In this document: positions 6,667-23,692 of the stretch, one piece after another
How the letters are laid out: every line of letters starts with the position of its first letter
How positions within the stretch are numbered: position 1 is the first letter of the stretch
From: Candidatus Thiothrix anitrata
GTDB lineage: Bacteria; Pseudomonadota; Gammaproteobacteria; Thiotrichales; Thiotrichaceae
Length of the DNA: 64,000 bases
Assembly: GCF_017901155.1 (NCBI RefSeq)
Contig: NZ_CP072800.1
Location: forward strand, 2,693,283 to 2,757,282
Direction of reading: 5' to 3'
Made by a program: the position numbers and the translations under genes
Notes under the pieces: model-generated
Told to the model about the DNA's origin: nothing
Seen by the model: only the letters and a program-made list of their open reading frames with translations
Database searches by the model: none

Positions 6667-7134
6667 TTACATCTGTGACTGTAAATAGTTCTGCAAGCCG
6701 ATTTTGTTAATCAAACCCAGTTGCTTTTCCAAATAATAAGCGTGATCTTGCTCGGTATCATCCAGTTGGCTACGCAGCATTTCACGGGTAACGTAATCTT
6801 GCTCTTCTTCGCAGATTTTCATCGCCGCCTTCAGCGCACCGACCACATGGTATTCCAGCGCAAGGTCATTCTTAAACATGCTGGGCACATCGGAACCCAC
6901 ATTCAGGCTGTCTTGATTGTTCAGATCCGGCACACCTTCGAGGAAGAGGATACGGCGAATAATGGCATCGGCATGGGCACTTTCTTCCTGACGTTCATGC
7001 TCGTAATGTTCGTACAGCTTGCTCAAACCCCAGTCGTCACACATGCGCGAATGGATAAAATATTGGTCGCGTGCTGCCAACTCCCCCGCCAACAGGGTTT
7101 TCAGCACGTCAATAACGCGGTCGTTGCCTTTCAT
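6667..7134 (-). CDS. bfr: Bacterioferritin, ferroxidase-type subunit lacking the haem Met
   Basis: Iron-storage shell subunit, 155 residues, aligning without gaps to E. coli Bfr. All ferroxidase ligands are present: Glu18, Glu51, His54, Glu94, Glu127 and His130. Position 52, the haem-ligating Met, is Ser (EESAHAD). This subunit should therefore oxidise Fe2+ but not form a haem site on its own. It lies 12 bp downstream of a second bacterioferritin gene with the reverse pattern, so a mixed 24-mer is likely, as in bacteria with paired BfrA/BfrB. The frame is intact. Confidence 0.93.
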
Positions 7135-7146
7135 AATGTCGTCTCC

Positions 7147-7790: not shown

Positions 7791-7814
7791 TAGACAAGTC
7801 GCTCTCCTAATTAC

Positions 7815-7840
7815 GCAAGCCACCCTTCCTGTTAGCCAGC
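7815..7840 (+). promoter_or_regulatory. Shared leader motif, copy 1 (GCAAGCCA ... AGCCAGC)
   Basis: GCAAGCCA at 7815-7822 and AGCCAGC at 7834-7840, followed by a run of six T. The start codon of the nitroreductase gene is 34 bases after the motif. Related copies lie at 9775-9804 and 23788-23818, both upstream of genes in this iron-related region. Function unknown. Confidence 0.4.
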
Positions 7841-7873
7841 GTGTTTTTTACACCCGACACCAGAGGATTGGTC

Positions 7874-8580
7874 ATGACCTACTTGCACTCCATTTTCAAA
7901 TCCAAGGATATGGCGTTGGCACTGGCAGTGGATCGCGTCATCCGCAACCGCCGCACACGGAAAGTGTTAGGCCACCTGCATTCCCCGCCGTTATTCCCAC
8001 GGTTTCACTGAAAAAGTCGAAGAAGCCGTGCGTATCGCGGGTTGGGCACCGTTTCATTTCCCGCCAACAAAATTCACCGTCAGAATGAACTCGATTCGTG
8101 TGTCCCTTGGCGTTTTTACGCGCTGGATCAAGCCAGTTGCCTGACGCTTGCACATTGTCTGCTGGATAACGGTGCGGGCAATGTGACCGAAGATTCCACC
8201 ATTATCCGCATGTTAGCCGCTGCCGGGTCGGTGGTGTTAAGCACATGGCTGCCTGAGCCAGACCACAGCAGCAAAGCGCAACACATGAACGAAGAACACC
8301 TTGCGGGTACTGCCGCCGCCGTCCAAAACCTGTTACTGGCTGGCGAAGCGCGTGATTTGCAAACCTATTGGTCTAGCGGTGGTGTATTAGCCTCCAGCGA
8401 GTGTTTCAAACTGTGTGGCATTCCCACAGAACAAAAATTACTGGGTGCAATTTTTATGTTCCCGCCCAAGCAGACAGCACCGCTGACATTCACGAAGGCA
8501 AATTGCGCAACCAACGCGGCACACCGGATAGCTGGCGCACGTGGGTATCACTGAGTCAACCACAGGAGCAAGCCGCATGA
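7874..8580 (+). CDS. Nitroreductase family protein, frameshifted
   Basis: Flavin-dependent nitroreductase-like protein. The start ATG 7874 opens with AVDRVIRNRRTRKVLG, the usual family opening. The reading then passes through another frame (FTEKVEEAVRIAGWAPFHF) and returns to the first for VPWRFYALDQASC and NEEHLAGTAAAVQNLLLAGEA, matching the conserved C-terminal helix. A last one-base loss near 8455 restores YVPAQADSTADIHEGKLR and a stop (TGA, 8578-8580) overlapping the next start codon. Length after repair is about 235 residues. Its coupling to the following ligase gene and position beside bacterioferritin and the fez-like block suggest a redox role in iron handling, which is inference. Confidence 0.6.
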
Positions 8581-9648
8581 ATTCATTCCGTTTTGGCATT
8601 GAACACGAAGTCGCGTTTTACCGCGCTGACGGCAAATTCGCCGATTTCACCAACACTCGCTTTGAAGATTTCCAGCAAATCGTTGATCGCTTGCCAGAAT
8701 ACCCCAGTGATGCCGAGCATTTGCGCAGTGGCGATGCGGGTATCCGCCGTAAACGTTGGTACATCGAAGGTTACGAACGCTTCAACGAAGATGGCACACT
8801 GCGGACTTGCATCCCAAAGGCGTCGAAATCCGCACCACCATTCACACCAGCATTCAAAGCGTGTTGAACGAATTGCAGGACAGTTACACCCTTTTGCAAG
8901 AGATGGCGGCACGTTATGGCTATCGCCCTGCCCAGTGAGCTTCAACCCAGAACAGGTAAAATTCACCCCCAACCCACCTCTGAATGCGTTTGAGCGCGAA
9001 CAACAGCGCAACGAATCGCCCGAAGAACGCGATACTGCCCATATCCCCATGCTCACGTATGGCCCTGACCTGAGCTTGTCGCAACCGGGTATGAATAGTG
9101 CGGCAATGATCGACGCTGCCAGCAAACTGACGTATTACAGCCCGTTTATTGTGCCTTTCAGTTTCAACTCGCCCTTTTATGCGGGGGAAATTTGGTCAGG
9201 TTTGTCGATCCGCACATGGAAACGTACCGGCGCACGCCCCGCCACCTTGGTGTTTCCACCCGATAGCGGACATTTGCTGCATTCCAATCCAACTTTGACC
9301 AAAGCACCGCGCCATCCGGCAGAAGCAGGACGGATTGAGTTCAAAGCGTTTGATTCCAGCAGTGATTTCACCTTGTATGGCACACTGTTTGCATTGCTGA
9401 AAGGGCTGATGCTGGATAATAGCTTGCCGGGGCGAGCCATTGTGCCGAATGCGCACCAGCATCAAGTGGCAGCGATGCAGGCATTTGATAACCCCTTGAT
9501 TTTCAAGTTTGCATGGCAAGCACTTCACGCCGCTGATCGGGCATTGGGCAATGACCCTGACCATCAATTGCTGGAACCGCTGTTTGATATGCTGCAACGC
9601 AAACGCACACCCGCACATGAGTTGCTGGAGATGCGCTTGTGCGCATGA
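8577..9648 (+). CDS. Glutamate-cysteine ligase family 2 (GCS2) carboxylate-amine ligase, frameshifted
   Basis: ATP-dependent carboxylate-amine ligase related to YbdK/EgtA-type GCS2 proteins. The start is ATG 8577, overlapping the preceding stop (ATGA), and the N terminus FRFGIEHEVAFY is the family's first substrate motif. Two one-base shifts, near 8815 and 8930, move the reading through HPKGVEIRTTIHTSIQSVL and then VSFNPEQVKFTPNPPL. The rest is open to the TGA at 9648 and includes SGLSIRTWKRTG. About 356 residues in total. Substrate unknown; a gamma-glutamyl thiol or peptide is possible. Overlap with the nitroreductase gene indicates one transcript. Confidence 0.65.
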
Positions 9649-9774
9649 CTTTGCTATTGGAAACCTCATGGAAATTTGAAGCCGTTTTGCCATAAGAAGC
9701 CAACTTTGTTGACCAATCTCAATGCCAAATCAAAACTGCTATGAGACGCTATCAGCCGTCACATTAATTTCACG

Positions 9775-9804
9775 GCAAGCCACTCCTATTCCGGGATAGC
9801 CAGC
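9775..9804 (+). promoter_or_regulatory. Shared leader motif, copy 2
   Basis: GCAAGCCA (9775-9782) and AGCCAGC (9798-9804) lie just before the fez-like block, in a 225-bp gap after the GCS2 gene. The spacing between the halves (15 bases) is close to that of copy 3 (16). The T-run of the other two copies is absent. The rest of the gap shows no gene. Confidence 0.35.
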
Positions 9805-9875
9805 TGAATAACAACCCCGCTGTCATGGAGTACGGCAATGTTATTGGTTGGTCTCGCACCCACAAAGGGGAGCGC

Positions 9876-10240
9876 ATGGCAGCCATCCCCAACCTCAACT
9901 TCGACACCGCTGCCCTGCTGCGCCTGCGCCAGCACCTCAACATTGTCCACCACATTCCCGGACGCATTCGCTTGCGCCTTGGCATGGCTTTGTGGAGCAG
10001 CAGCGCACAACTTGACCGCAACCAGTTCCAACGCCTGCTCGACGGGCTGGAAGGCATCCGCGATGTACGCATCAACCCAGCGGTCGCCTCTGTCACCATT
10101 GAATACAACCCCAAACACATTCCCCCAACGACTGGGAAACGCTGCTGCATGGCGACGACCAAGCCGCCAGCACCTTATTGGATGACTGGCTAAGGCGTCA
10201 CGCCCAGTTGTTACACGACACCTTCATGCACAAGGAGTAA
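9876..10240 (+). CDS. HMA-like domain protein with R-x-R motif (FezC-like ferrosome candidate), frameshifted
   Basis: Small protein with a ferredoxin-like HMA fold in which the usual CxxC metal site is replaced by HHIPGRIRLRLG. The second half, GLEGIRDVRINPAVASVTIEY, is the typical beta-alpha-beta of an HMA domain. The same R-x-R motif recurs in the P-type ATPase and in the protein at 13856-14223. ATG 9876 is chosen for its AGGGGAG site; an upstream in-frame ATG at 9825 has none. One C lost in the run near 10128 separates the C terminus, which ends in HAQLLHDTFMHKE. About 121 residues after repair. Its role in metal-granule formation is inferred from cluster similarity. Confidence 0.6.
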
Positions 10241-10243
10241 ACA

Positions 10244-10822
10244 ATGAACGAACCAACAATGCCAACCAAGGCATGAACCCGGCGGAGGCCACCACTATGA
10301 TGGACGGCGAAGCCCCGCAGGACAAGGCAAGGCAAGCCCGCAAGCAAGGCGGCAACCCGGAAGCGCAAGGCTTGTACCAACAAGCGGCTGCTCAACAATC
10401 CGCACCGCAAATGCCCTATCCACCTCAACAGCCTTACCCCTACGGTTACGCGGCACAACCTGTGTATGGGCAAGCACCCGGCATGGGACAAATGTACGGT
10501 CAATACGCCGCCCACCGCCGCCGCCACCTGCCCGACCCTCCGGTCTGAACCAGATGGTGCAAGATATGACCAGCGGCACACCCGGTCTTTCCAGCCTCAC
10601 CAAACTGATCGACTTCGACGACAAGGATTTCTGGAAAGGCGCATTGGTCGGTGCTGCCGCCGTGCTGCTACTCACTAATAGCGGCGTACAACGCGCCCTG
10701 TTCCGGGAGCGGTCAAAACCCGCGATGCCGCCGAAGATGGGGTGGAAAAGGTCAAAGAAGGCGTCAGTAAAGTGAAAGAAACCGTGCAAAAAGCCGCCAG
10801 CAAGGAGAATGACGATGAGTGA
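10244..10822 (+). CDS. Small membrane protein with Gln/Pro/Tyr-rich N-terminal tail, fez-like cluster, frameshifted
   Basis: Unrecognised by name. Repair of three one-base losses (near 10260, 10515 and 10710) gives about 193 residues. There is a low-complexity tail rich in Gln, Pro and Tyr (PYPPQQPYPYGYAAQPVYG) and a poly-Pro segment. One hydrophobic helix follows (KGALVGAAAVLLLTNSGVQ), then a Lys/Glu/Val-rich amphipathic tail (EKVKEGVSKVKETVQKA) like YtxH-type proteins. The same architecture recurs in the gene at 11222. Such proteins could coat or shape a membrane vesicle, by analogy to organelle-associated proteins (inference). The stop overlaps the next start. Confidence 0.5.
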
Positions 10823-11197
10823 TCATTACCCCGTCGCGCAAAACCAGATGCAATACCCGCAAACCGCGCAGAATCCGGTTCCCACTTGTTCCCTCAGTGC
10901 GCTTGCCAATATGGCTATTGCAGGTGCGGTCATTGGTGGTTCTGCCGCTGCGGCTAAAAATTTACGGCGCGTCCAACAAGAAGAAATCCAATCACGCGAA
11001 GCCCTGATTGATACCGGCAAAACCGCACTTTCCAGCGCAGTTGCCACAGCGGCTGCTACTGCTGCCGCCACCACGGTTGCTGGTGTGGTTTCCCATGCAG
11101 TGGCTGACCGGAGCTGTTGCGCTTGGCAGTGATGCTTGGTGTCGGCACAGCCGTGCTGTACGGCCTGAATCGCTGGACAGAAAACAACGGCGCGTAA
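10815..11197 (+). CDS. Small Ala-rich membrane protein, fez-like cluster, frameshifted
   Basis: Start at ATG 10815, placed seven bases after AAGGAG; a nearer ATG at 10809 is too close to the ribosome site. A short Gln/Tyr-containing tail precedes a Gly/Ala-rich hydrophobic helix (IAGAVIGGSAAAAKNLRR). A polar linker and a second Ala-rich stretch follow (SSAVATAAATAAATTVAG). One G lost near 11112 separates the last part, LRLAVMLGVGTAVLYGLNRW, a third hydrophobic segment. About 127 residues after repair. No named family recognised. It overlaps the preceding gene and lies in the middle of the putative ferrosome operon. Confidence 0.5.
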
Positions 11198-11221
11198 CCC
11201 CCATTCACAAGGAAGCAGATC

Positions 11222-11625
11222 ATGAATCATCAACACGCAATGTATCCCACTCAACCGCAAGAACCCGCGCAAGATACTACGCAGCAACCGCCACAAAACA
11301 TGGCGCAACCACAAGCTGCTATGCCGCAACAGGCTTACTACCCACAGCAACCCGTTGCCTACGGTTATCCGGCTTACCAGCGTATTACCCACAGCAAGCG
11401 ATGCCCACACCTGCCCCGCAAGCCAGCTTTCTCAACGAACGCTTTGTCAAAGGTGTGCTGATTGGAGCCGCTGCTGCTTACATCCTTACCAATGAAAACG
11501 TGCAGCGCACCGCCATCAAAAGTGCAGTCAAAGCATGGAGCTTATTGCAAGGCGGCGTAGAAGAACTGAAAGAACGCTTTCAGGATGCTGAAGCCGAAAT
11601 CCGCGCCGAAGCGGGCGACGAATAA
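11222..11625 (+). CDS. Small membrane protein with Gln/Pro/Tyr-rich tail (paralogue of 10244 gene), frameshifted
   Basis: The N-terminal ~65 residues are Gln/Pro/Tyr-rich (AYYPQQPVAYGYPAY). A one-base shift near 11380 then leads into FLNERFVKGVLIGAAAAYIL, a single membrane helix followed by TNENVQRTAIKSAVKAW and an acidic amphipathic tail, AEIRAEAGDE. The KG-(A/V)-L-(V/I)-GAAA and LTN-x-(G/N)-VQR pattern is shared with the protein at 10244-10822, so the two are paralogues. About 134 residues after repair. The gene lies 11 bp before the ATPase gene, RBS AAGGA. Function unknown; a membrane-remodelling or cargo-tethering role is conceivable. Confidence 0.55.
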
Positions 11626-11636
11626 AGGATTGAACG

Positions 11637-13763
11637 ATGGCTAAGCTCGTTGTATTGCACGAAACCCCGGCACGTTTGCGGGTACGCCTGCCTGCGCTGG
11701 CAGAACGGGATTTTAACCCGGTAGGGCTGGAATCCTGGCTGGAATCCCAACAGGGCATTAAAGATGTGCGCATCAACCTGAAAGCCGCCAGTGTAGCCGT
11801 TGATTTTGACCCGACCTGTACCGGGCGTAGTGCCATCCTGACACGCTTGTCAGCCTTCCGCAGCTCACAAGTCGGTGAGGCACGTGGGCAAAGCAATAGC
11901 ACCGTCACCGACATTGCCCCGTTGGTCAGCAGTGCGGCAACACTTGCCTTGATGCCATTCCTCACACCTGCGCAACGCCGCACCCTCAGCATTGCTGATG
12001 CGGCTCCCACCTTGCTTAACGGGCTGGATACCTTCATCCATCACGGCATCGAGATGGAAGTGCTGGATGCGCTCGCCATCGGGCTGGCGGGTTTCAAGGG
12101 TGAAGCCTACAGCGCCAGCATTACCACGTTCCTGCTGGCTTTGGGCGAATACCTCGAACACCAGACTGAGCGCAAATCTGACAAACTACTGCGGCGTTTG
12201 TTACAGCCCGAACCTGCTCCGGCGTGGGTAGAACGTGAGGGTGAACTGGTAAAAATCCCCGGCACTGAAGTCAAGGTCGGTGAAATCGTGGTCGTCGGCA
12301 TTGGCGAAACCGTTCCCGTGAACAGGCAGCGTGGTCGAAGGCGTTGCCCTGCTCAATCAGGCAGCCGTGACTGGCGAAGATTTGCCAGTACGCAAGGAAC
12401 AACGCCATCGCGTCGTCGCAGGCAGCGTGGTGGAAGAAGGCCGCATCCGCATCGAAGCCCAGCGGGTCGGCTCTGACACCACCACCGCACGGGTTGCCAA
12501 TTTCATCCAGTCATCACTGGAAAGCCGTTCCGATACCCAACGCATGGCGGATGAACTCGCCGACAAGCGCGTGTGGTTTACCCTGATCACCGGCGGGCTG
12601 GTGTATGCCGTCACCCGCGACCTCACCCGTTTGCAATCGGTGTTTTGGTGGATTATTCCTGCGCCCTCAAGTTGGGTACACCCATGGCGTTCAAGTCCGG
12701 TTTGTACCGCGCCGCCACCCACGGGGTATTGATGCGCGGCGGCAGTGCCATTGAACATCTGGCGGAAGTTGACACCATCGTCTTCGACAAAACTGGCACA
12801 CTGACCCACAGCGAACTGGTCGTGACTGACGTGGTGGTGCTGGACAAATCCCATCTGGATGAAGATGCATTGCTGGCACTGGTGGCCTCCATCGAGGAAC
12901 ACGCCAGCCACCCACTGGCACAAGCAGTCGTGGATGCTGCCAAGGAACGCGACCTCCAGCACATTACTCACGGCGAAATTGACTATCTGGTGGCGCACGG
13001 CCTCACCACCGATGTAGACGGCAAACGTGTCGTCATCGGCAGTCGCCACTTTCTGGAAGAACACCACAACATCCTGTTCGCCAAACACGAAACCGCCATC
13101 GACCGGCTTCAGGACGAAGGCAAGACCCTGCTGTACGTGGGTGCGGCGGCGCAAGGGCGTAAAGTGGCAAAACCCATCGGCATTGTCGCCTTGCGTGACA
13201 CCCTGCGGGCGGATGCGGTGTACGCCATCAACCGCTTGCGCAGCCTCGGCATTACCCAAGCGATCATGATCACGGGTGACAAACGCAGCAAGGCCGAAGC
13301 ACTGGCAGCCGAACTGGGGCTGGACGCAGTACACGCCGAAGTCGCCCCGGAAGAAAAAGCCGCCATCATCCAGCAATTGCAGGCGCAAGGCCGCAAGGTA
13401 GCCTTCGTCGGCGACGGCATTAACGACGGCCCAGCATTGTCGGTAGCGGAAGTCGGCATTGCCATGCCACGCGGAGCGGACATTGCCCGCGCCACCGCCG
13501 ACATCGTGCTGATGGATGACAGGCTGGCAGCAGTCGCCGATGCCCGCGAACTGGCAGGACGCACCATGAAACTGATCCGCAGCAATTTCAACATTGCGGT
13601 CGGGGTAAATACTGCGGTGCTGGCAGGTGCAGTGCTGGGCAAGCTATCGCCAGTCATGAGCGCGGTGCTGCATAACGGCACAACCATTGGCGTATTGCTA
13701 CGCTCGCTGGTTGGTGTGGATATAGACGGATTGGCGGACAATAAGCAAGCAAAACGGCGTTGA
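11637..13763 (+). CDS. P1B-type metal-transporting ATPase with SCA motif, FezB-like (P1B-6), frameshifted
   Basis: Heavy-metal P-type ATPase of about 709 residues after repair. The N terminus has a degenerate HMA domain with R-x-R (ETPARLRVRLP) and no CxxC. Next come transmembrane helices, the actuator-domain AAVTGE motif, the metal-site helix with SCALKLGTP instead of CPC, the phosphorylation motif DKTGTLTHS, the HASHPLAQAV nucleotide-binding motif and the hinge VGDGINDGPAL. SCA is the signature associated with the P1B-6 subgroup, which includes the ferrosome ATPase FezB; substrate is probably Fe. Frameshifts lie near 12316 (one extra A) and 12647 (one T missing). The gene is followed by another R-x-R HMA-like protein and the feo operon. 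Confidence 0.82.
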
Positions 13764-13805
13764 AGCCATAAAAGCTGTGACGGGATATGGTTTTTATTGT
13801 TATTG

Positions 13806-13824
13806 AATGATAGTAATAATCATT
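13806..13824. promoter_or_regulatory. Fur-box-like palindrome before the second R-x-R protein gene
   Basis: ATGAT (13807-13811) and ATCAT (13819-13823) form a palindrome within AATGATAGTAATAATCATTT, close to the Fur consensus. It is 33 bases upstream of the start codon at 13856, so the following gene and perhaps the feo genes may have their own iron-regulated promoter. Confidence 0.5.
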
Positions 13825-13855
13825 TGGCAAGCAAGTGTTAAACGAGGAAGCAACC

Positions 13856-14223
13856 ATGACAGCCATTGATTACATGCACCACACTCCCGGTCGCCTGCGC
13901 CTGAAAGGCCGCCATTTCAATTGCCACGGTGTCACCGCCCGCCGTGCCGTGACCGCATTGGAAGCCACGCCCGGTGTTGAGACGGTCAAATTCAACAAAC
14001 ATGCGGGTAGCCTGACCGTGCATTACGACCCACAACGGCTGACCCACGAAGAACTGATAAACACGTTGGAAATTGCCGGGTGTATCCGCACCCCAGCAGT
14101 ATCCAGACACACAATGCGCCACCCGCCGCAGCCAGTGAAAAAGTCTCAGGACTGTTCAGCAAGGCATTGGTCGGCGCACTGGCACAACGTACCGCCAGCC
14201 ACCTGATTGGTAAACTTTTATGA
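13856..14223 (+). CDS. HMA-like domain protein with R-x-R motif (FezC-like), frameshifted
   Basis: Small soluble protein with an HMA-like fold. The loop normally carrying CxxC reads HHTPGRLRLKGRHF, as in the N termini of the ATPase and the 9876 gene. GVETVKFNKHAGSLTVHYDP completes the first repeat. One C lost near 14096 separates a C-terminal tail, SEKVSGLFSKALVGALAQRT, which looks like a membrane-associating helix. About 121 residues after repair. ATG 13856 has GAGG upstream. It sits between the ATPase and feoA genes, and its partner is probably the ATPase. The fez relationship rests on motif and context, not on a database match. Confidence 0.6.
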
Positions 14224-14244
14224 ATGACAGGATGACAACGCACT

Positions 14245-14481
14245 ATGGCTGAACAAGGCAGTTTTCCATTAGGGATGGCAGAAGAAGGCGCAACAGTACG
14301 CATCGTTGCGCTGCGTGGCGGAGCAATGCTGGACAAGCGTGTGACCGAAATGGGTTTGAATGTCGGCAGTGAAATCACCGTGCGCCAACGCCAAGGCGGC
14401 GGGCTGGTAGTATCACGCGGCGAAACCCGCTTCGCACTAGGCGGAGGCATGGCACACAAAATTATGGTAGAGGCGGTATGA
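14245..14481 (+). CDS. feoA: FeoA family protein (first copy)
   Basis: 78-residue SH3-like FeoA protein, a cytoplasmic accessory of the FeoB ferrous iron transporter. The core EGATVRIVALRGGAMLDKRV-type opening is followed by TEMGLNVGSEITV and a C-terminal RFALGGGMAHKIMVEAV. It is intact, without frameshift. A second, divergent feoA follows 39 bp later, then feoB. Tandem feoA genes occur in several gammaproteobacteria; the two products may play separate roles. Confidence 0.9.
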   Translation: MAEQGSFPLGMAEEGATVRIVALRGGAMLDKRVTEMGLNVGSEITVRQRQGGGLVVSRGETRFALGGGMAHKIMVEAV

Positions 14482-14520
14482 CAATCTGCCCCTGCACCGC
14501 TAACCCGATGGAGACTCCCA

Positions 14521-14751
14521 ATGACACTTAAAGAATTGCAAGTCGGCGACCGTGCCAAAATCAGCGGCTTTCTGGAAGGCGGTGGTGCTTACCGCCGCAA
14601 GCTACTGTCGATGGGCTTAACCCCCGGTGCTGAAATCGGCATCACCCGTGTTGCCCCGATGGGCGATCCGGTGGAAATCCGCGTGCGCGGTTTCGCCTTG
14701 ACCATCCGCAAGGATGAAGCCGAAGTCCTGTCAGTGGAGAAACTGTCATGA
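14521..14751 (+). CDS. feoA: FeoA family protein (second copy)
   Basis: 76-residue FeoA protein, closer than the first copy to the classical form: LQVGDRAKISGFLEGG, then LLSMGLTPGAEIGI and a C-terminal VRGFALTIRKDEAEVLSV. The stop codon overlaps the start of feoB (ATGA), implying translational coupling and direct partnership with FeoB. Intact reading frame. Confidence 0.92.
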   Translation: MTLKELQVGDRAKISGFLEGGGAYRRKLLSMGLTPGAEIGITRVAPMGDPVEIRVRGFALTIRKDEAEVLSVEKLS

Positions 14752-17071
14752 ATACCCGTTACACCATCGGCTTGGTCGGCAACCCCAATTGCGGCAAAAC
14801 CACCTTGTTCAATGCTCTGACGGGTTCCAAGCAACGGGTCGGCAACTGGCCGGGCGTAACGGTTGAACGCAAGGTTGGCGAATACAAGCTGGACGACACC
14901 CGCTTTGAAGTCGTGGATTTACCCGGCACGTATTCGCTGGATGTGGTTGACCGCGAAGTGTCACTGGATGAAAAAGTTGCTCGCGATTACGTCCACGCCA
15001 ATGAAGCCGATTTAATCATCAATATCGTCGATGCCTCCAATCTGGAACGTAATCTCTACCTCACCAGCCAGCTTGCCGAAATGCGCGTACCGCTGCTGGT
15101 CGTGGTCAATATGATTGACGTGGCAGAAACCAAAGGCATGAAAGTCGATACTGCCGCCCTGTCACAACAACTCGGTTGCCCGTTATTCCGGTAATTGCCT
15201 CGGAAGGCGACGGGGTGGATGTGCTAAAACAGGCCATTAAAACCGCCGTCGTCAAACAGCCACGTCCCACGGTGCAATTCCAGTACGACGCGGCTCTTGA
15301 ACAGGCTGTCAACACCCTTGCCCGACAGCTCGAAACAGCCGCAAGCACCAGTGGCGTTGCCCCGCGCTGGCTGGCAATCCGCCTGTTAGAAGGCGATGAT
15401 CTGGCACGCCAAGCGGCGGGTGACGCACTCGCAACGGGTGCAGCACAGCAAGCCGCGCTCTTGGGTGATGACATTGACATTATGGTGGCGGATGCACGGT
15501 ATGGTCTTGCTAACCGCATCGCCAACCAAGCCGTCAGCATGACCGGGCAAGCCAGCCGTGACATCACCGACCGTATTGACCATGTGGTGCTGAACCGGAT
15601 TTTCGGTATCCCGATCTTCCTGTTCATGATGTATTTGATGTTCATGTTCACCATCAATATCGGTGGCGCGTTTATTGACTTCTTTGACCAGCTTGCCGCC
15701 ACCGTGTTTGTGGATGGATTCGGTGAATTGCTGAGCCATCTGGGTGCGCCAGAATGGTTACGGGTCTTGCTTGCCAACGGTATCGGCGGCGGTTTACAGA
15801 CCGTGGCAACCTTCATTCCGGTGATTGGCTTTTTGTACCTGTTCCTGTCAGCACTGGAAGATTCCGGCTACATGGCGCGGGCGGCGTTCGTGATGGATCG
15901 GTTCATGCGCTGGGTGGGTTTGCCGGGTAAATCCTTTGTGCCGCTGATTGTCGGGTTTGGCTGCAATGTGCCTGCGATCATGGCGACCCGCACGCTGGAA
16001 CACCGCCGTGACCGCCTGATCACCATTGCTATGGCTCCTTTCATGTCTTGCGGGCGCGGTTGCCAGTGTATGTGTTGTTTGCCGCAGCTTTTTTCCCGCA
16101 GGGGGCACAAAACGTGGTGTTTGGCCTGTACCTGATCGGGATTGCCGTAGCGGTACTGACCGGGCTGGTGCTAAAGCATTCCTTGCTCGAAGGCGAGGCA
16201 ACGCCGTTTATCATGGAATTGCCGCCTTACCATTTGCCCACCTGAAAGGCATCCTCACGCATGCATGGTCACGCTTGAAGAGTTTTATCGTCAAAGCGGG
16301 GCGTATTATCGTGCCAATGGTACTGGTGCTGAACGTGTTGAATGCGCTGGGAACCGATGGCAGTTTCGGCAATGAAGACAGTGACAAGTCAGTATTGGCG
16401 GAAGTCGGCGTACCTTGCCCGGCATTCTCACCGATGGGGTTGCACGAGGATAATTGGCCTGCTGCCGTCGGGATTTTCACCGGGGTACTGGCGAAAGAGG
16501 CCGTGGTCGGCACGCTGGATGCGGCGTATACCGCATTGGGTAAACAGGATGCCGCCGAGGCTGGCACGGCTGCCGAGGAAGCAACACCGTTCAGCCTGCC
16601 AGCGGGTATTGCGGCGGCTTTTGCCACTATCCCCACCAATCTGGCAGGTGCGCTGGGTACATGGACTGACCCGCTGGGCGTAAACGTGGGTGATGTCAGC
16701 GACCAAAACGCGGTAGCGGAAGAGCAAGGGTTGCCGACAGCACGTTTGGTGCAATGGCGGCGCGGTTTGACGGGGCTGCGGGGGCATTTGCTTACCTGTT
16801 GTTCATCTTGCTGTATTTTCCTTGCACGGCGGCAATTGCAGCGGTGTATCAGGAGTCCGGGATGCGCTGGACGCTGTTTGTGGCTGGGTGGACAACCGGG
16901 CTGGGTTACGGGCTGGCGACGCTGTATTACCAAAGTGCGACGTTTGCACGGCATCCGGGTACGTCGGGTATGTGGATAGGAATTGTGTTGGCCTGTTTGG
17001 TTTCGGCGTTCCTGATATTGCACTGGCTGGGGCGGCGCGAGGTTGGTGTGCCGCTGCCACAACAAGCCTAA
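14748..17071 (+). CDS. feoB: Ferrous iron transport protein FeoB, four frameshifts
   Basis: Inner membrane GTPase-permease for Fe2+ uptake. The G domain shows G1 [10 protein letters not shown]3 DLPGT and G4 NMID. The helical GDI-like region follows, then the permease with [14 protein letters not shown] and the conserved [11 protein letters not shown] segment. Four one-base shifts, near 15185, 16055, 16240 and 16745, break an otherwise colinear protein of about 774 residues, a normal FeoB length. Every fragment is in the expected order with nothing missing, so a sequence error is likelier than decay. It lies in the operon feoA-feoA-feoB-feoC. Confidence 0.92.
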
Positions 17072-17086
17072 GCCACAAGGGTAAGC

Positions 17087-17310
17087 ATGATCCTGTCACG
17101 GATAACTGCGTATTTGCGCGAACACAAACGTGCCAGCCTGTTGGATATGTCCTACGCGCTGGAAGCAACCCCGGACGCACTCAAAGCCATGCTCTCCACA
17201 CTGGAACGCAAAGGGCGGGTACGCCGCTTGCCAGCGGCACGGCCTGTGGCGGTGGGTGCAGCAAGTGTGACCCGCACAGCGTGGAATTATACGAGTGGGT
17301 CGATGCGTAA
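17087..17310 (+). CDS. feoC: FeoC-like winged-helix protein with Cys cluster, frameshifted
   Basis: Small winged-helix protein, third partner of the Feo system. The opening is ILSRITAYLREHKRASLLDM, with helix-turn-helix residues ATPDALKAMLSTLERKGRVR. Near 17240 a one-base shift leads into TACGGGCSKCDP, giving the C-x3-C-x2-C cluster typical of FeoC, and a stop at 17308-17310. About 75 residues after repair. RBS AAGGG is upstream, 15 bp after feoB. The stop overlaps the start of the next gene, so the unknown downstream gene is co-translated. Confidence 0.8.
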
Positions 17311-17870
17311 GGCATTGCTGGTAATCGGCATTCACCGCGAGGAACGCGCTTTCGGTGAAGCCGTCGCCAGTAGCCTTGACCCTACCCTGTTTGACGTATT
17401 GGTGATCCCCGACGGTCTGTCGGGGCAACACCCCGCCCTGACCAGCGTTTCCATTTCGAGATGCTGCACCGCGAACTTTACCACCAGCTTTTGCCACATG
17501 TGACGGGGCATTACCCGCTGCTGGTGGATTTGCATGCCGGGGTTGATGAACAGGGTTTGTGCATTGATTTGTTCTGCAATCAGCCACAACGGCTGGAAGG
17601 CTTGCCTGCCTTGCTGGAGAGGATGGCAGATAGTGAGCTGCCTACAGCGGCGGTGCGGGTGGTGCATTTGCTCAAGGGCAAGGGTGGCACTGCGAGTGGG
17701 CTGGTGGCGGAAACGGTGATCCCGGCAGAGATTTGGTGTAACCGCCGGTTTTTGTATTTGGGGTGGAGGTGTTTTTGTCGGCACGTGGGGCGGGTACGAC
17801 GCAGGAACAGGATTTTACCCGGCGGTTTTCGGGCGGGCTGGTGCGCGGATTGATCCGTGAAGCTGCTTGA
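17303..17870 (+). CDS. Unknown protein coupled to feoC, weak resemblance to AstE/AspA-type zinc hydrolases, frameshifted
   Basis: Start ATG 17303 lies within the last codons of feoC. The repaired protein is about 190 residues. Near its start LLVIGIHREERAFGEAV contains an H-x-x-E pair. In the middle there are HRELYHQLLPHVTGHYPLL and LVDLHAG. An HxxE pair and a later D-L-H are the zinc-ligand layout of succinylglutamate desuccinylase/aspartoacylase proteins, but the match is short and uncertain. One-base losses lie near 17445 and 17763. No name is offered. Its position makes a role alongside ferrous iron uptake possible. It converges with metR, 8 bp away. Confidence 0.5.
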
Positions 17871-17878
17871 TTGACACA

Positions 17879-18750
17879 TCACCCACGCAACAAGCCAATG
17901 AAACCCATCAGCCACGGCTTGCCCATATCTTCTTTGCGCACCACCAGCCACAGTTGCTTGGTCAAGGGGTCGGCGGGAAATAACAGGCACAAATCCTCCC
18001 GCCAGGCACTGCGTTCTGCCAGCCACGCCGGTATCACCGCCACTCCGCGCCCACTTGCCACCATACCCAGCATCAACTCCGTATCCCCAACCGTCTTATG
18101 GTAGCGCGGCTCCAGTCCGGCGGGTTGCAACAGGTGGGTGAACACATCCAGACGGCTGCGCTCCACCGGGTAGGTCAGCAGGGTTTCTTCCGCCAGATCG
18201 CTGGCAGTGAACGTTTGCCGTGTCGCCAACCGATGTTGCTTGCCCACCGCCAGACACAGCGGGTAACTGAACAGGGGTTCATGGTGCAAGTCGCCATGTG
18301 GCATCTGGTCAGGTGTCAGGCAAGCATCAATCTGGTAGTCCAGCAAGGCTGGCAACGCAGAAAAACGGTACTGGCTGACAACATCCACATCAATATCCGG
18401 CCAGTCACGCATGAATGCCGCCAGTGCCGGATTCAGCCATTGCGCACAGGGCAAACATTCCACCGCGATATGCAAACGCCCGCCGCACCCATCCGCCATC
18501 AGTTTGAAGCGGCTACGGGTGACTTCGATTTCAGGCAATACCCGCTGTGCCAACCGTAGCAACTCCTGCCCCGCTGGCGTGAGGCTGAGGCGTTGCCCTG
18601 TTTGTTCCAGAAGGCAATACCGATTTCGTGTTCCAGTGCTTTCATGCGGTGTGAAAGTGCGGATTGGGTCAGGCACAAGGCTTCTGCTGCCGCACCAAGC
18701 GTCTGGTGTTGGTGCAAAGCGTGAATAATGCGTAGTGCGGCGATGTCCAT
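17879..18750 (-). CDS. metR: LysR-family regulator MetR, frameshifted once
   Basis: Activator of methionine synthesis genes that responds to homocysteine. The N-terminal helix-turn-helix, GAAAEALCLTQSALSHRMKA, and the C-terminal effector domain with RLHIAVECLPCAQWLNP are typical of MetR. One base is missing near 18600, between HEIGIA and EQTGQRLSLTPAGQELL. About 290 residues after repair. It is divergent from metE with a 98-bp intergenic region carrying an operator-like palindrome, the standard metR/metE arrangement. Confidence 0.85.
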
Positions 18751-18751
18751 A

Positions 18752-18766
18752 ATGAGTTTTACTCAT
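18752..18766. promoter_or_regulatory. MetR-type operator between metR and metE
   Basis: ATGAGTTTTACTCAT is a perfect 5-5-5 palindrome, a variant of the TGAA-N5-TTCA MetR box. A second TGAAT/TTCAT-containing stretch follows at 18765-18800. Its location between metR and metE supports the assignment. Confidence 0.6.
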
Positions 18767-18848
18767 GAATTACTGAGAAAAACGCGATTTTATTCATTGA
18801 TTGATCACTGCACAATCCTTCTTTCTGTCATTCAATGGAAGAATTTGT

Positions 18849-21124
18849 ATGCGACTCCACAACCTCGGCTTCCCACGCATGGGGGCAGGCCGTGAATTGA
18901 AATTTGCGTTGGAAAGCTACTGGAAAGGGGCAAGTGATGCCGACAGCCTGCTAACCACTGCTACGGCTTACGCCAACAGCACTGGAACATTCAGCAACAA
19001 GCGGGGCTGGACTTTGTGCCCGTGGGCGATTTCGCCCTGTACGACCATGTGCTGAACACCAGTTTGATGCTGGGCAACTTGCCACCGCGTTTCCAGCAAG
19101 GGCAAGGGGCAAACGAACTTGACCAGTATTTCCGCATGGCACGCGGACGCGCCCCGACAGGCGAACCGACCTTTGCCTGTGAAATGACCAAATGGTTTGA
19201 CACCAATTACCACTACATCGTGCCGGAACTGGCAAGCGATACCGATTTCCATCTGGCTTCCACCCAGTTGCTGGATCAGGTGAAAGAAGCCAAAGCCGCC
19301 GGGTTCAACCCCAAGCCCGTCCTGCTGGGGCCGTTGTCCTACCTGTGGCTGGGCAAGGTCAAGGGGCAGGAATTCGACAAACTGGAACTGCTGCCACGCC
19401 TGTTGCCCGTGTATGTGGAAGTGTTGCAATACCTCGCCGCGTTGGGGGTGGAATGGGTGCAAATCGACGAACCCATTCTGGTGCTGGATTTGCCGCTGGC
19501 ATGGCAAAACGCTTTTGAATCCGCCTACAACCAGCTCCAGACCCGCAGCCTGAACCTGTTGCTGGCAAGCTATTTCGGTGAGTTGCGCGACAACTTGCGG
19601 CTGGCGTGCAACTTGCCCGTGGCAGGACTGCATCTGGATGCGGTGCGCGGGCGGGAAGAAATAGCGCGGGTGCTGGACAACCTTTCACCCTACAAAGTGC
19701 TGTCCCTTGGGGTGGTGGATGGGCGCAACCTCTGGAAAACCGACCTCAACGCGGTGCTGGCATGGCTCGAACCCATCCACCAACGCTTAGGGGAACGCCT
19801 GTGGCTTGCCCCGTCCTGCTCATTGCTGCACGTACCGCTGGATTTGGGGCTGGAAGCCACGCTGGATACGGAACTGAAAAACTGGCTGGCATTTGCCGTG
19901 CAGAAGCTGGACGAATTGCGCATCCTCAGCCAAGCCCTGACCCAAGGACGTGGCAGTGTGCGTACTGCGCTGGAAGCCAACCACGCCGCCATTGAAAGCC
20001 GCCAAACCTCCACACGGGTACACAACCCAGCAGTGGCACAACGCATGGCAGACATTACCCCGGCACTGCTGCAACGCGCTTCCGCCTACCCCGAACGCGC
20101 CAAGGTGCAACAGCAACGCTTCGAGTTGCCGCTGTACCCCACCACAACCATTGGCTCATTCCCGCAAACGCAAGAAATCCGCAAGGCACGGCATGATTTC
20201 AAAGCTGGGCAACTGGACGCAGCCAGCTACCACGCCGCGATGCAGGCTGAAATCCGCCACGCCGTCGAAGTACAGGAACAACTGGGGCTGGATGTCCCCG
20301 TGCATGGTGAAGCCGAGCGTAACGACATGGTGGAATACTTCGGTGAACAACTTGCCGGGTATGCCTTCACCCGGCTGGGTTGGGTGCAATCCTACGGCAG
20401 CCGCTGCGTCAAACCGCCGATCATTTACGGCGATGTGTCACGCCCGTTGGCCATGACGGTGGAATGGTCGGCTTATGCCCAGTCCCTCACCACCAAGCCC
20501 ATGAAAGGGATGCTCACTGGCCCGGTTACAATGCTGCAATGGTCATTCGTGCGGGATGACCAGCCGCGCCGTGATACCGCGTTCCAGATTGCGTTGGCGT
20601 TGCGGGATGAAATCCTTGACCTAGAAGCGGCTGGCATCGGCATTATTCAGGTGGATGAACCCGCTTTCCGCGAAGGTTTGCCCCTGCGCAACAGTGAATG
20701 GAAAGCCTACCTGCAATGGGCGGTGGAGGCGTTCCGTCTGTCAGTAGCGGGGGTGCGCGATGATACCCAAATCCATACCCACATGTGCTATTCCGAGTTC
20801 AACGACATCATGCCGGAGATTGCCGCGATGGATGCGGACGTGATCACCATCGAAACCTCGCGTTCCGATATGGAATTGCTGGAAGCGTTCAGTGAATTTG
20901 CCTACCCCAATGAAATCGGCCCCGGCGTGTACGACATCCACAGCCCCAATATCCCCACGGTAGACAGCATGGTGCGGATGATGCAGAAAGCCAGCCGTGA
21001 CATCCCGCCCCAACGCTTGTGGGTTAACCCGGATTGTGGGTTGAAGACACGACAATGGGCGGAGGTGATCCCGGCACTGGCCAACATGGTGGAGGCTACC
21101 AAGGTGTTACGCGAAGCAGCCTGA
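18849..21124 (+). CDS. metE: Cobalamin-independent methionine synthase MetE, frameshifted once
   Basis: 5-methyltetrahydropteroyltriglutamate-homocysteine methyltransferase, the last step of methionine synthesis. The start [20 protein letters not shown] matches MetE. One base lost near 18970 moves the reading to [14 protein letters not shown], after which the frame is open to 21124. The catalytic half starts at [10 protein letters not shown], and the zinc ligands lie in HTHMCYSEF and NPDCGLKTR. About 758 residues, the usual length. Divergent from metR. Confidence 0.95.
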
Positions 21125-21132
21125 TCCAACGG

Positions 21133-21159
21133 GGATGTTGCTTTAATCAAGCAGCATCC
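21133..21159. terminator. Hairpin between metE and the convergent ATPase/nuclease gene
   Basis: GGATGTTGCTT (21133-21143) pairs with AAGCAGCATCC (21149-21159). There is no clear T-run on either side, so termination strength is uncertain. Confidence 0.5.
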
Positions 21160-21164
21160 TCCCC

Positions 21165-22861
21165 TCAAGCCAGCCGCAGCACTTCCACCCGCTGGGTATC
21201 CGTGATAATCAACCACGCACTCAAATTCTTAAGGGCGGTAATACTCGGCAGTTGCAGATATTCCTGCACTTGCTGAGTACCTTGCTGTTTCTTCGCCTCC
21301 CAGCCTTTGTCACCATCGCCCTTCTTGCAATATTTAAGCTCAATCAAATGCTGGAAATTGACCTTATAAGGGCTACGTTCCAGCAACAAAATATCAGGGT
21401 ATTTCTTATCCATTTCGCGTTCACTCAGGATGAAATACGCCGGAGACTGGTACAGCAACGCCAGCAAAATTGTCTTGATATGTTCCTCATCCAAATACAG
21501 TGAATCGCGGTTGGACAGCAATTGCAGCACCCGTTCCAGTTCCGCCACCAGCGGCTGGATGTCGCTGTAAAGTGCCAGTTTCTCCACTGCCAATAGCAAC
21601 GTGCGGTCGGAAATGGTGATCTGGTTGCGCCGCTCGATTTCGACTTTAAAATACTGGAAATATAACTCGCGCATCACGTGATTAGGGATAGCAAACACCT
21701 CGCCCGCCAGCGATTCACGCACCAGCGTGGTGAAACCCATGTACGCTATCAGGCTGATAAAATCATTGCGGTCAAAACCCTTGTCAAACTCAAACTTGCG
21801 CCGCTGACTGGCTTGTACTTCACCCGCATTCAACAACTCATCCAGCACCGCGAAATTGTCATCGCGGTTGCCAATGGTGAACAACTTCATGATTTTGCCG
21901 TAGTCCGAGGCAATGTTCTCATCCAACATCGGCTTGGAGTATTCACAGCGTTTGCGGTCAAAATCTTGACGAAATACAGCAGCATATTGGCGTTGTACAC
22001 GCTTTGCGGCGTTTTGAGGTTGAAACGGTAGCCGTTGTACCAAGCGCGGGCATCGCCAAGTAATTGTTCCAACGCAATGGGGCAGGTTTCTGCCAATGGC
22101 TGCAACAGGGTGATCACTTCCGCTTCGGTAAACCCCACTGCCTCATTGAAGTCCTCATGCAGCGACAAATTCACGCCAATATTGAAGCCACTGGTCATAC
22201 TGTCGAGCATCACTGGCGTAACACCCGTGACAAACAGCCGGTCGAGTGTGCCGCGCTGGGTCGCGGTTTTCAGCACTTCGTAAAAGCTGCGTACAAACCC
22301 GCCCTTGCCCATGATTTTCTGGAATAGTTGCAGGTCATCGGCAAGGATAGTGTTGGCAAAGTGGTCGTATTCGTCGATCAGCAGCAGGAATTTTTGTTCG
22401 CCCAGTGCCGTCAAAAACTCACGCATTTTAGCGGCGGGTGAAGCCTGTTCCAGAATGACCTGTCTGACCTGTTGGGGATAAGCATAACGATCCAGAAACT
22501 TGCTTAGCCATGTGGCGACATTGTTGTCGAACTCAGACAGAATCGCATCATGCCCACCGTCGGTGTCAATGCCACTAAAATCCATGAACAGTACTTGGTA
22601 AGTGTTGTGCAACGGCGTGGGATGCTGCCCAATATACAGCTTGCCAAACAGGGTGGCGAATGCATCCCGATGCGATACATCGTAGTAGTATTCCAGCATC
22701 GACAACATCAGGCTTTTACCGAAACGACGCGGACGCATCAGGAACAAGTGGCTGCCCATTTGCTCCAGCTTGGGGATGTAATGGGTCTTATCGATATAGA
22801 CGAAACCTTCCGTCATCACTTTTTTGAAATTGCTTTCGCCGTAGGGGATTTTCAGGTTCAT
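21165..22861 (-). CDS. AAA-ATPase with C-terminal PD-(D/E)XK nuclease domain (DUF1703 type), frameshifted once
   Basis: Member of the AAA-ATPase/DUF1703 family found in many copies in Thiotrichales and Bacteroidetes. The N terminus IPYGESNFKKVMTEGFVYID leads to the Walker A-like RPRRFGKSLML. Walker B is LLLIDEYDHF and sensor-like residues TGVTPVMLDS follow. The C-terminal PD-(D/E)XK core is HLIELKYCKKG. One base is shifted near 21965 (after LLYFVK). About 565 residues after repair. The biological role of the family is not established; defence or mobile-element functions have been suggested. It stands alone, convergent with metE. Confidence 0.8.
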
Positions 22862-22925
22862 GCTGTCTGTGCCGATGGTGCTTATGGAGGCAGTCTAGCA
22901 CAATTCCCTTTGCTTGATTGACACC

Positions 22926-23669
22926 TCACCCGCACCGATTTCTGCCCATACCGCCATGACCATGACCCGCACTACCACCCCCATGATGTCCCCTGCCCCA
23001 ACCGCCGCCACCGTTACCGACATTGCCTTGACGAACCGTGGCATGATCATGGCTGGCTGGCATAGCCGCCATACCTCTTCCCTGCCCCATACGCTTGCCG
23101 CCGCCGCCCATACGGGTAACATTCCCACCGTTTGGATAGGCTGAACTGCCGATGATGGCATCCACTTCCGTCTGCGGCATGACCTGCGCGGCATAAGCAC
23201 CGCTACGGCTTTGCAATTGCCCGGTAAATGCCCGCAAATGGCGGTGTGAAGCCTGCATCAGGTTGTTGTACACACGGGAAATATCGCCTTGCGAAGTCTT
23301 GCTGATAGCGTTTTGCAAATCGGCAATATCGGTTTCCTCAATCAGTGCGCCGACCTGCAAGGCATCGTGGGCAGATTTGCGCCCGCGTGCGATCAAATCA
23401 GCATACAAGCTGGAAAGTTCCGGGTTAGTGAACACCCCCACCCGGTCATTTGTCACTGGATCAGGGATACCGTAGGTTTGCAGCAAGCCCTGCACCGCAT
23501 CGGTATGACGCTGTTCGGAGGCGGCAATATTGCTGAACACTGGCAAGCGCCACAGACTGTACAGGGTCAGATAAACATCACGGGCAAGTTTTTCTTCCTC
23601 GCGCATGAATTGCAAGGCTTCACGTTCGTTGTCATTCAACGGTGAAGGGGTGGATAGGTTAGCAATCAT
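22926..23669 (-). CDS. DUF2202 ferritin-like protein with Gly/His-rich tail
   Basis: The N-terminal ~150 residues are a DUF2202 four-helix ferritin-like domain. The iron-ligand-type motifs are MREEEKLARDVY and SEQRHTDAVQ in the first pair of helices and ASHRHLRAFTGQL in the last. The C-terminal ~75 residues are low-complexity Gly/His/Met-rich (GRGHHGGGSAGHGHGG), a likely metal-binding tail. 247 residues, intact frame. Two Fur-box-like sequences lie just upstream, so iron-dependent regulation and an iron-storage or detoxification role are reasonable inferences. Confidence 0.8.
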   Translation of the reverse strand: MIANLSTPSPLNDNEREALQFMREEEKLARDVYLTLYSLWRLPVFSNIAASEQRHTDAVQGLLQTYGIPDPVTNDRVGVFTNPELSSLYADLIARGRKSAHDALQVGALIEETDIADLQNAISKTSQGDISRVYNNLMQASHRHLRAFTGQLQSRSGAYAAQVMPQTEVDAIIGSSAYPNGGNVTRMGGGGKRMGQGRGMAAMPASHDHATVRQGNVGNGGGGWGRGHHGGGSAGHGHGGMGRNRCG

Positions 23670-23692
23670 GACTCACGTGCTCCATTCAATGT

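Follow-up and report, generated by a model that had tools for sequence, protein, structure and literature searches.

A probable ferrosome-type (fez) gene cluster with an adjoining second set of ferrous-iron import genes in Candidatus Thiothrix anitrata

Layout of the fez-feo block

By analyzing a 64,000-nucleotide stretch of the Candidatus Thiothrix anitrata genome (hereafter the window), we found six consecutive genes at 9876-14223 that we read as a fez-type block, in the order HMA_2, X, MamC-like, Y, FezB and HMA_2, followed by feoA-feoA-feoB-feoC. An earlier reading made from the letters alone (the sequence-only reading) had counted five or six fez-like genes; the count is six, and genes, order and motifs were borne out. 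The features are given below, with open copies from the same-genus loci L011 and L012 where they define a gene.

9647..23687, no strand: presence/absence segment of 14,041 bp, whose flanks are adjacent in alignments with G005 (L188) and G001 (L189)
9876..10241, plus: small HMA_2 (heavy-metal-associated domain 2) protein with RxR for CxxC; Pfam PF19991, E 4e-8; open copy L011:3572-3934; frame-broken near the 3' end
10244..10823, plus: protein X, with a long Pro/Gln/Gly-rich tail, a KG-GAAA membrane segment and a charged helix; open copy L011:3935-4603, 222 aa; frame-broken
10815..11198, plus: MamC-like membrane protein, homologue of magnetosome MamC; NCBIfam NF038051, E 2.1e-12; hhalign E 7.9e-16; frame-broken
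11222..11625, plus: protein Y, with a Pro/Gln/Tyr-rich tail, a KGxLIGAAAAYxLTNExVQ membrane segment and a GGVEELKERFxDAEAE helix; open copy L011:5005-5424, 139 aa; frame-broken
11637..13763, plus: FezB, P1B-type ATPase with YSC/SCA for CPC and an RxR-bearing HMA-like domain at its N terminus; open copies of 712 aa in L011 and 707 aa in L012; frame-broken
13808..13822, plus: putative Fur-box-like palindrome TGATAGTAATAATCA, downstream of fezB and ahead of HMA_2-feo, with 2 mismatches to TGATAATNATTATCA
13856..14223, plus: second small HMA_2 protein with RxR; Pfam PF19991, E 1e-7; open copy L011:7669-8034; 3' part frame-broken
14245..14481, plus: FeoA; Pfam PF04023, E 3.5e-17
14521..14751, plus: second FeoA; Pfam PF04023, E 5.6e-22
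14748..17071, plus: FeoB, fez-linked second copy; Pfam FeoB_N, 1.7e-66 on the open L012 copy; frame-broken in the window
17087..17284, plus: FeoC-like, scanned piece with provisional 3' end; Pfam PF09012, E 8.2e-13

Pfam confirmed the four feo genes that had been read behind the block, feoB being tested on the L012 copy. An ordinary FeoB occurs in all 16 genomes of the genus; the fez-linked FeoB is a second copy, confined to the 3 that bear fez. FezB is missing from the other 13. Among loci with wide flanks, a Feo gene lies within 9 kb of FezB, in any orientation, in 10 of 58, a raw count with no background rate. A tight succession of fez, HMA and feo is claimed for no loci other than the Thiothrix copies, L030 and L042; a second FeoA was not found in L042, and in L041 feo also adjoins but HMA is on the opposite strand.

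Besides fez-feo, the presence/absence segment holds a gene without Pfam match, a LysR-type gene and metE (by our own reading), an AAA-ATPase-like gene and DUF2202. It is missing with sharp edges from the two relatives G005 and G001, and in a third genome, G009 (L190), the site is occupied by different DNA. No shared repeat of at least 9 bases was found within about 160 bases of the edges, where one chance-like 8-mer occurs, nor did a search inside each edge find a repeat. An IS110-type transposase gene lies just outside the segment, at 24413-25405. Also outside it stand two ferritin-domain (bacterioferritin-like) proteins (6667-7617, minus strand, Pfam), in agreement with the bacterioferritin that had been noticed upstream of the block.

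The Fur-box consensus is TGATAATNATTATCA, and the putative box within the block is identical in the window, L011 and L012 (3 of 3 genus copies). Fur-like boxes in the 64-kb window are not rarer than chance, with 3 found versus 1.97 expected at up to 3 mismatches. Exact boxes were found in three Shewanella loci and, over the loci searched, there were 24 matches in 681 kb near FezB versus 11 in 726 kb further out. The HMA_2-feo half may be Fur-controlled. Fur repression is suspected in the Thiothrix cluster, whereas for C. difficile it is reported, together with fezA and fezB, in PMC12574912. Compared by description, the C. difficile pair comprises a FezB pump and small membrane protein(s), as here, and the gene set is larger here. 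Upstream of the first gene lies a conserved stretch, readable as MEYGNVIGW, in which the three Thiothrix copies differ by no more than 2 bases; a search of the other loci did not find it.

Frame breaks in the block

As assembled, all six fez genes and feoB are frame-broken, and the caution of the sequence-only reading about its own frame repairs was right. L011 has open frames for all six fez genes. L012 has them for FezB, X, Y and the final HMA_2, with some N, but not for genes one and three. Breaks relative to related genomes were seen only at about 7.8-19 kb, where they also affect a nitroreductase and, by our own reading, glutamate-cysteine-ligase-like, LysR-type and metE genes. Genes in a single frame were found at 30-37 kb (7 of 7 tested) and for DUF2202 at 23 kb, the rest of the window being judged by ORF lengths alone.

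We have to ask whether a true fez cluster is decaying here, with real frame breaks and no organelle made, which we consider unlikely but worth weighing. Every gene of the block is broken, the segment varies between relatives, and G+C is 0.567 at 7.8-21.1 kb versus 0.502 in the rest of the window, all of which would fit decay. Moreover, in four genes compared with L011 only 5 of 11 frame-changing indels adjoin a run of at least 3 identical bases and one spans 7 bases, so simple homopolymer error does not account for all of them. However, the 10 other indels are single-base changes, and breaks also occur in the two genes bordering the segment (7.8-9.6 kb), whose counterparts in G005 and G001, about 92% identical, are open. 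Also against decay, dN/dS for window pieces against L011 runs from 0.02 to 0.16 in five genes, much as it does for L011 against L012 (0.05-0.16), with 0.163 versus 0.142 for FezB and 0.102 versus 0.139 for FeoB. The only stop counted inside these pieces is in FeoB, at a hand-set border (our own reading). Taken together, the broken region is probably a stretch of poor sequence.

FezB and its companion genes

The stretch before DKTGT is LVDYSCALKLGTP in the window, L011 and L012, where ordinary P1B pumps read ACPCALGLATP or similar. The metal site described earlier as SCA instead of CPC is indeed present in all three copies; since the CPC of ordinary pumps aligns with YSC, the in-register triplet is YSC, and SCA is the same site shifted by one residue. 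The motif (Y/F)(S/A)C(A/G) occurs in 84 of 84 FezB relatives long enough to test, a count biased by the patterns spanning the metal site itself with which most of them were retrieved. The 8 copies retrieved through whole-protein similarity (L011, L012, L023-L028), which escape this bias, all have it, as does a ninth, L029. CxxC occurs in the first 160 residues of 1 of the 84 FezB, and a CPx-type triplet in 1 of the 84. R-x-R does stand in place of CxxC, as had been proposed, in both HMA_2 proteins and at the FezB N terminus; among relatives it is without exception in 21 aligned FezB and in 10 aligned HMA-type domains, with P-x-R-x-R/K in 81 of 84 FezB and RxR without P in the other 3. FezB has the P1B-6-type features of a non-CPx metal site and RxR for the N-terminal CxxC, SCA and RxR being what we take to define P1B-6. 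In a table of PMC7558416, P1B-6 is listed with Fe(II).

In a tree where the L011 copy stands in for the broken window copy, 29 FezB relatives form one side of a 100/100 branch, apart from 14 CPx rows including E. coli CopA and ZntA. A grouping of the ATPase with CPx exporters, which the sequence-only reading had named as evidence against itself, was looked for in this tree and not found.

Counting one family per gene in the 70 loci with enough flank, Y is present in 70, X in 68 and MamC-like in 64. HMA_2, X, MamC-like and Y all lie beside FezB in 55 of these loci, at least one of the four kinds is missing in 15, and the full six, including two HMA_2, occur in 40. Among the 40 are three Shewanella genomes (L104, L107, L108) with the order HMA(-) HMA X MamC Y FezB and the same six families as L011 and the window. 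The sixth gene, an HMA_2, is divergent and upstream in these Shewanella loci, whereas here it lies downstream on the same strand and leads the second feoA-feoA-feoB-feoC. Pro/Gln/Tyr-rich tails, read earlier on the small membrane proteins, were seen in X and Y of the window and in relatives, in a count that dropped members without a tail of >20 residues; such a tail is missing from the Y-type proteins of Magnetovibrio and Azospirillum.

Shewanella putrefaciens reportedly has a six-gene fez operon, an account ascribed to Grant et al. 2022. Six fez genes of R. palustris (RPA2333-2338) are described in PMC12016538 as giving rise to ferrosomes. Both are six-gene operons around a P1B-6-type ATPase, as here. 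The named operons of R. palustris, S. putrefaciens, D. magneticus and C. difficile are absent among the 80 FezB-type loci of our contig scan and were compared by description only, so that the fez call comes from gene content, motifs and the Shewanella-genus copies. The D. magneticus fez genes presumably include a FezB-type ATPase, as here. They also include FezC, a DUF4405-like heme protein described for D. magneticus and Desulfurispirillum in PMC11334425, whereas no DUF4405 protein was found in the Thiothrix cluster, which we therefore do not file as D. magneticus-type. An absence of FezC-like homologues had been named in advance as telling against the fez reading: this holds for the cluster, and elsewhere in the window there is one DUF4405 match (27292-27903, minus strand), of cytochrome b561 type. 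We rejected this protein as FezC, because cytochrome b561 is the better match (E 1.6e-27 versus 8e-9) and DUF4405 matches occur in 16 of 16 genus genomes.

Gene content, motifs, the ATPase tree and the Shewanella-genus layout together support the fez interpretation of the sequence-only reading. We put at about 0.85 the probability that the block is a fez cluster coupled to a second set of genes for ferrous-iron import. As such, it is a further cluster of an already known type, in a filamentous sulfur oxidiser, the wide spread of fez clusters in bacteria and archaea being already in print (Grant and Komeili 2020).

Alternatively, FezB could export Fe(II) over the cell membrane for detoxification, without any organelle. 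Known P1B pumps are mostly exporters and the solved structures nearest to the L011 FezB fold are CopA- and ZntA-type pumps, which both count for export. We nevertheless find this quite improbable, since X, Y, MamC-like and HMA_2 companions travel with FezB in Gammaproteobacteria and in three examined plasmid clusters of Alphaproteobacteria and Arcobacter, and since a cell would presumably gain nothing by combining export with a second Fe(II) import system. That an ordinary copper/zinc CPx ATPase locus was misread through sequence errors is hardly credible: generic NCBIfam heavy-metal ATPase models match the window FezB and the L011 copy, but open-frame relatives share the non-CPx site and form a separate clade, and on the tree we rejected a copper/zinc CPx identity.

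The MamC-like third gene and a possible iron store

Against NF038051, the third gene scored 47.2 bits (E 2.1e-12) for the window piece and 41.0 bits (E 1.8e-10) for the L011 copy. Because both lie below the equivalog cut-off of 100 bits, the gene is not MamC itself. Profile-profile comparison (hhalign) of the fez MamC-like family with MamC gave 98.6% (E 7.9e-16), with homology over 81 columns and 35% identity in the aligned pair. As controls, protein Y against MamC gave 0.2%, and the fez MamC-like family against Y gave 40.5% (E 3e-4) over 35 columns; Y as a MamC relative is thus not supported. NF038051 was matched at E <=0.01 by 24 of 25 chosen MamC-like members. Across 398 genomes of Pseudomonadota, MamC matches under the cut-off come from three fez clusters and nowhere else, and weaker MamC-like matches were found in the three examined plasmid clusters (Azospirillum, Cereibacter, Arcobacter). 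Judged from these profiles, the third fez gene is homologous to MamC of magnetosomes and belongs to the MamC superfamily. An AlphaFold model of the protein has three helices (mean pLDDT 72, pTM 0.44); it was not used as evidence.

If the block is a fez cluster, FeoA-FeoA-FeoB-FeoC would bring Fe(II) into the cytoplasm, and FezB, as a P1B-6-type ATPase in an internal membrane, would move it into a vesicle lumen. The two RxR HMA_2 proteins and the RxR domain of FezB may serve for cytosolic docking or regulation, not thiol metal binding, and X and Y, each with a disordered tail, a glycine-rich membrane segment and a charged helix, may give the vesicle membrane its shape or crowd it. The MamC-like protein, also in the membrane, may touch the iron mineral as it grows, a position proposed for MamC in magnetosomes; a MamC loop is described as binding iron oxide crystals in PMC12199438. 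Iron-filled membrane granules would then form a store. The evidence from this analysis consists of gene content, order, motifs, relatives, the phylogeny of relatives, the second FeoB and the empty site.

A MamC-family protein is usual in fez clusters (64 of 70 loci, weaker in the three plasmid clusters). We tentatively propose, at slightly below even odds, that it has a common ancestor with magnetosome MamC, that ferrosomes and magnetosomes share this building block and that fez-feo is a self-contained, transferable iron-organelle kit of importer, vesicle pump and mineral-contact protein. In the literature within our reach, which leaves out the founding ferrosome papers (Grant 2022, Pi 2023), we found no link between MamC and fez clusters and, by paper title, no ferrosomes in Thiothrix; we do not claim that the relation is unpublished. 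If new, it would be a part common to both membrane-bound iron organelles of bacteria, and one could test whether magnetosomes borrowed parts from ferrosomes or ferrosomes from magnetosomes. The same gene families occur in purple sulfur bacteria, Vibrionaceae and Enterobacterales, and a probable ferrosome-type gene set with its own iron importer is now placed in filamentous sulfur oxidisers.

Gene content and relatives of the cluster

Six genes stand in a row on the plus strand at window positions 9876-14223. In order, they encode a small RxR protein (HMA_2), a membrane protein rich in Pro and Gln (X), an Ala-rich one, another rich in Pro, Gln and Tyr (Y), the P1B-type ATPase FezB and a second HMA_2; feoA, feoA, feoB and feoC lie downstream. 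Within the genus, the ATPase was found in 3 of 16 genomes, the window's included. In G013 (locus L011), FezB has 712 aa with a C-terminal half 96% identical and all six genes are open; in G004 (locus L012), FezB has 707 aa (87% identity), some N are present and neither the first gene nor the third has an open frame.

Using the site region of FezB to scan GTDB genomes, we obtained 427 pattern matches, 385 of which encode a relative, and retained the best 80, a ranking that favours query-like sequences. These best 80 of 385 belong chiefly to Chromatiaceae and other sulfur bacteria, followed by Vibrio, Photobacterium, Ferrimonas, Shewanella, Kluyvera, Hafnia, Budvicia and others. Together with nine loci found by similarity they gave 88 loci. 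This number does not count the window or L012, which was left out because it duplicates L031; L026 and L082 contain an identical FezB. After exclusion of 18 loci with <3.6 kb on one side, and with one family counted per gene, the 70 remaining loci (mainly from the best 80 of 385) carried Y in 70, X in 68, a relative of the magnetosome membrane protein MamC in 64 and HMA_2 in 63, all four families in 55 and all four plus two HMA_2 in 40. Three Shewanella loci (L104, L107, L108) have the order HMA(-) HMA X MamC Y FezB, with HMA(-) upstream, whereas in the window the second HMA_2 follows FezB on the plus strand. Ferrosomes of S. putrefaciens reportedly involve six genes. R. palustris builds its ferrosomes with six fez genes (PMC12016538).

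Six-gene fez-type clusters were also seen in Enterobacterales (Kluyvera, Hafnia, Pluralibacter; L087, L088, L090, L093, L100, and L077 and L084 with short flanks), and a metagenome-assembled genome named Magnetovibrio sp. (L085) has, besides its fez-type cluster, an additional MamC-like and HMA gene on the opposite strand. The three Thiothrix copies agree within two bases over a 24-base stretch 5' of the first fez gene (window 9824-9847), readable as MEYGNVIGW; no such stretch was found in the other FezB loci of the best 80 of 385 and the similarity set.

FezB occurred at E <= 1e-120 in 8 of 398 sampled Pseudomonadota genomes, the window's included, and at E <= 1e-100 in 12 of 72,556 plasmid records (Azospirillum 8, Arcobacter 2, Cereibacter 1, Vibrio 1). 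Neighbours were inspected in four plasmid clusters (L110, L111, L112, L113) and families tested in three, each of which contained HMA_2, Y and a weak MamC-like relative (Arcobacter 2.6e-13, Azospirillum 9.6e-8, Cereibacter 3.4e-7). The plasmid MamC-like gene is annotated "hypothetical protein" in all three clusters examined. The Cereibacter plasmid pORIO2 is typed conjugative, with TonB-dependent receptors and a FeoA gene close to its fez-type cluster.

FezB and the MamC-like protein

The metal-site stretch of FezB reads LVDYSCALKLGTP, in contrast to ACPCALGLATP in E. coli CopA. Like the sequence-only reading, we take SCA combined with RxR to mark the P1B-6 type. A table in one review pairs P1B-6 with Fe(II) (PMC7558416). 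Among 84 relatives of at least 600 aa (mainly the best 80 of 385; window, L012 and L029 excluded), the site was YSCAL in 71, YACAL in 9, FACGI in 2 and FSCGI in 2; P-x-R-x-R/K was present in 81, and an N-terminal CxxC and a CPx-type triplet in one each. This constancy is partly built in, since most loci were retrieved via patterns over that site; the site is also present in all nine copies retrieved by whole-protein similarity (L011, L012, L023-L029). H12, R17 and R19 were invariant in an alignment of 21 FezB sequences.

A tree of 57 ATPases (29 FezB, 14 pumps of the CPx type, 8 odd Thiothrix ATPases and, by our own reading, 6 P2/P3/Kdp-like) separated FezB at 100/100, with 87/45 for the CPx group; the programme flagged long branches elsewhere. 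In the L011 FezB model (mean pLDDT 79.5, pTM 0.62), the N-terminal domain reads as HMA-like, with RxR predicted on the second strand; among solved structures, pumps of the CopA, ATP7B and ZntA types come nearest. The odd Thiothrix ATPases (L159, L161-L163, L165, L166, L168, L170; G013 and G004), of ~640-720 aa and without a CPx site, form one strongly supported group beside FezB on a long branch. Four of them and a fragment lie within ~73 kb of G013 (G013:C4:4380529-4453084), and a search of the window's genome found none.

The NCBIfam MamC model has a cut-off of 100 bits; the third-gene piece of the window stays under it with 47 bits (E 2.1e-12), and the L011 copy matched at E 1.8e-10. The model was matched at E <= 0.01 by 24 of 25 fez members chosen out of 69, and no other family was matched by more than one of these 25. 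Profile-profile comparison of the fez family with MamC, built from proteins of 8 of the 13 genomes exceeding the cut-off, gave 98.6% (E 7.9e-16). As controls, Y gave 0.2% against the same MamC profile, and the fez family against Y gave 40.5% (E 3e-4, 35 columns), so that resemblance between membrane segments has some effect by itself. Across the 398 sampled genomes, the model matched 16: 13 above the cut-off, presumably magnetotactic, and three below (the window's, G276 and G368), each next to FezB. It matched none of the other five fez-positive genomes; our own MamC-like profile and a reading of the neighbourhood found none at four of them, and in the fifth the contig stops at FezB. Given these genomes and the weak plasmid relatives, a MamC-like protein is usual in fez clusters, not universal. 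According to one review, the MamC loop binds iron oxide crystals (PMC12199438).

The feo genes and the variable segment

A FeoB ~53-56% identical to the fez-linked one occurs in all 16 genus genomes, and the FeoB search found the fez-linked second copy only in the three fez-positive ones. The Thiothrix copies have the order fez, HMA, feo in common with L030 and L042; a second FeoA was not seen in L042. L030, L042 and two Thiothrix copies form one FezB clade (100/100) despite the listing of Parasulfuritortus (L042) under Thiobacillaceae, which suggests transfer. In all three genus copies, a palindrome between fezB and the HMA_2-feo genes lies two mismatches from the Fur consensus. Fur-like sites were no rarer than chance in the window, and numbered 3 against 0.06 expected in L011 and 2 against 0.19 in L012; their density near FezB loci is ~2x that further out.

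In the fez-less genomes G005 and G001, the aligned flanks stop at window 9646 and resume at 23688 with zero bases between; G009 carries other DNA there, hence an empty site in two of three genomes inspected. Besides fez and feo, this 14,041-base segment contains an AAA-ATPase-like gene, a DUF2202 gene, one gene that matches no Pfam family and, on our own reading, LysR-type and metE genes. G+C is 0.567 at 7.8-21.1 kb vs 0.502 in the rest of the window. A search for repeats found none marking the edges. Two features lie at or near the right edge:

22926-23669, DUF2202 protein, at the right edge, within the segment
24413-25405, IS110-type transposase gene, ~0.7 kb beyond the right edge

On two Arcobacter plasmids, too, a DUF2202 gene is annotated close to FezB, and another follows feo in L011. 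In G013, fez directly follows the same upstream gene as in the window. The segment may represent either a gain in the window's genome or a loss in the sister genomes.

Frame breaks and proposed iron storage

As assembled, frame changes split all six fez genes and feoB. Wherever relatives allowed comparison, breaks were seen only at ~7.8-19 kb, in unrelated genes as well, and two of the broken genes lie immediately beyond the inserted segment and have open frames in G005 and G001 (~92% identity). This concentration (7800-19000) straddles the segment edge. At 30-37 kb, all seven genes tested have a single frame. Against L011, 11 frame-changing indels were counted in four genes (10 single-base changes and one of seven bases), and a run of at least 3 equal bases adjoins five. 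With piece borders placed by hand and frames left unmended, dN/dS of window pieces against L011 was 0.163 for FezB, 0.102 for FeoB, 0.021 and 0.117 for the two FeoA and 0.091 for HMA_2; between L011 and L012 it was 0.142, 0.139, 0.052 and 0.163, and 0.083, respectively. We read this pattern as probably poor local sequence, not decay.

Gene content, relatives and sequence properties led us to assign the cluster to the fez type, in its six-gene kind. The other kind, defined by the DUF4405-like heme protein FezC of D. magneticus, was rejected, as no such protein was found in the cluster. Judging from the protein families, the second Feo would import Fe(II), FezB would pump it into vesicles and the MamC-like protein may contact the mineral. 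Organelle formation in Ca. Thiothrix anitrata would depend on the frames being open, and the gene set itself probably acts as a ferrosome kit.
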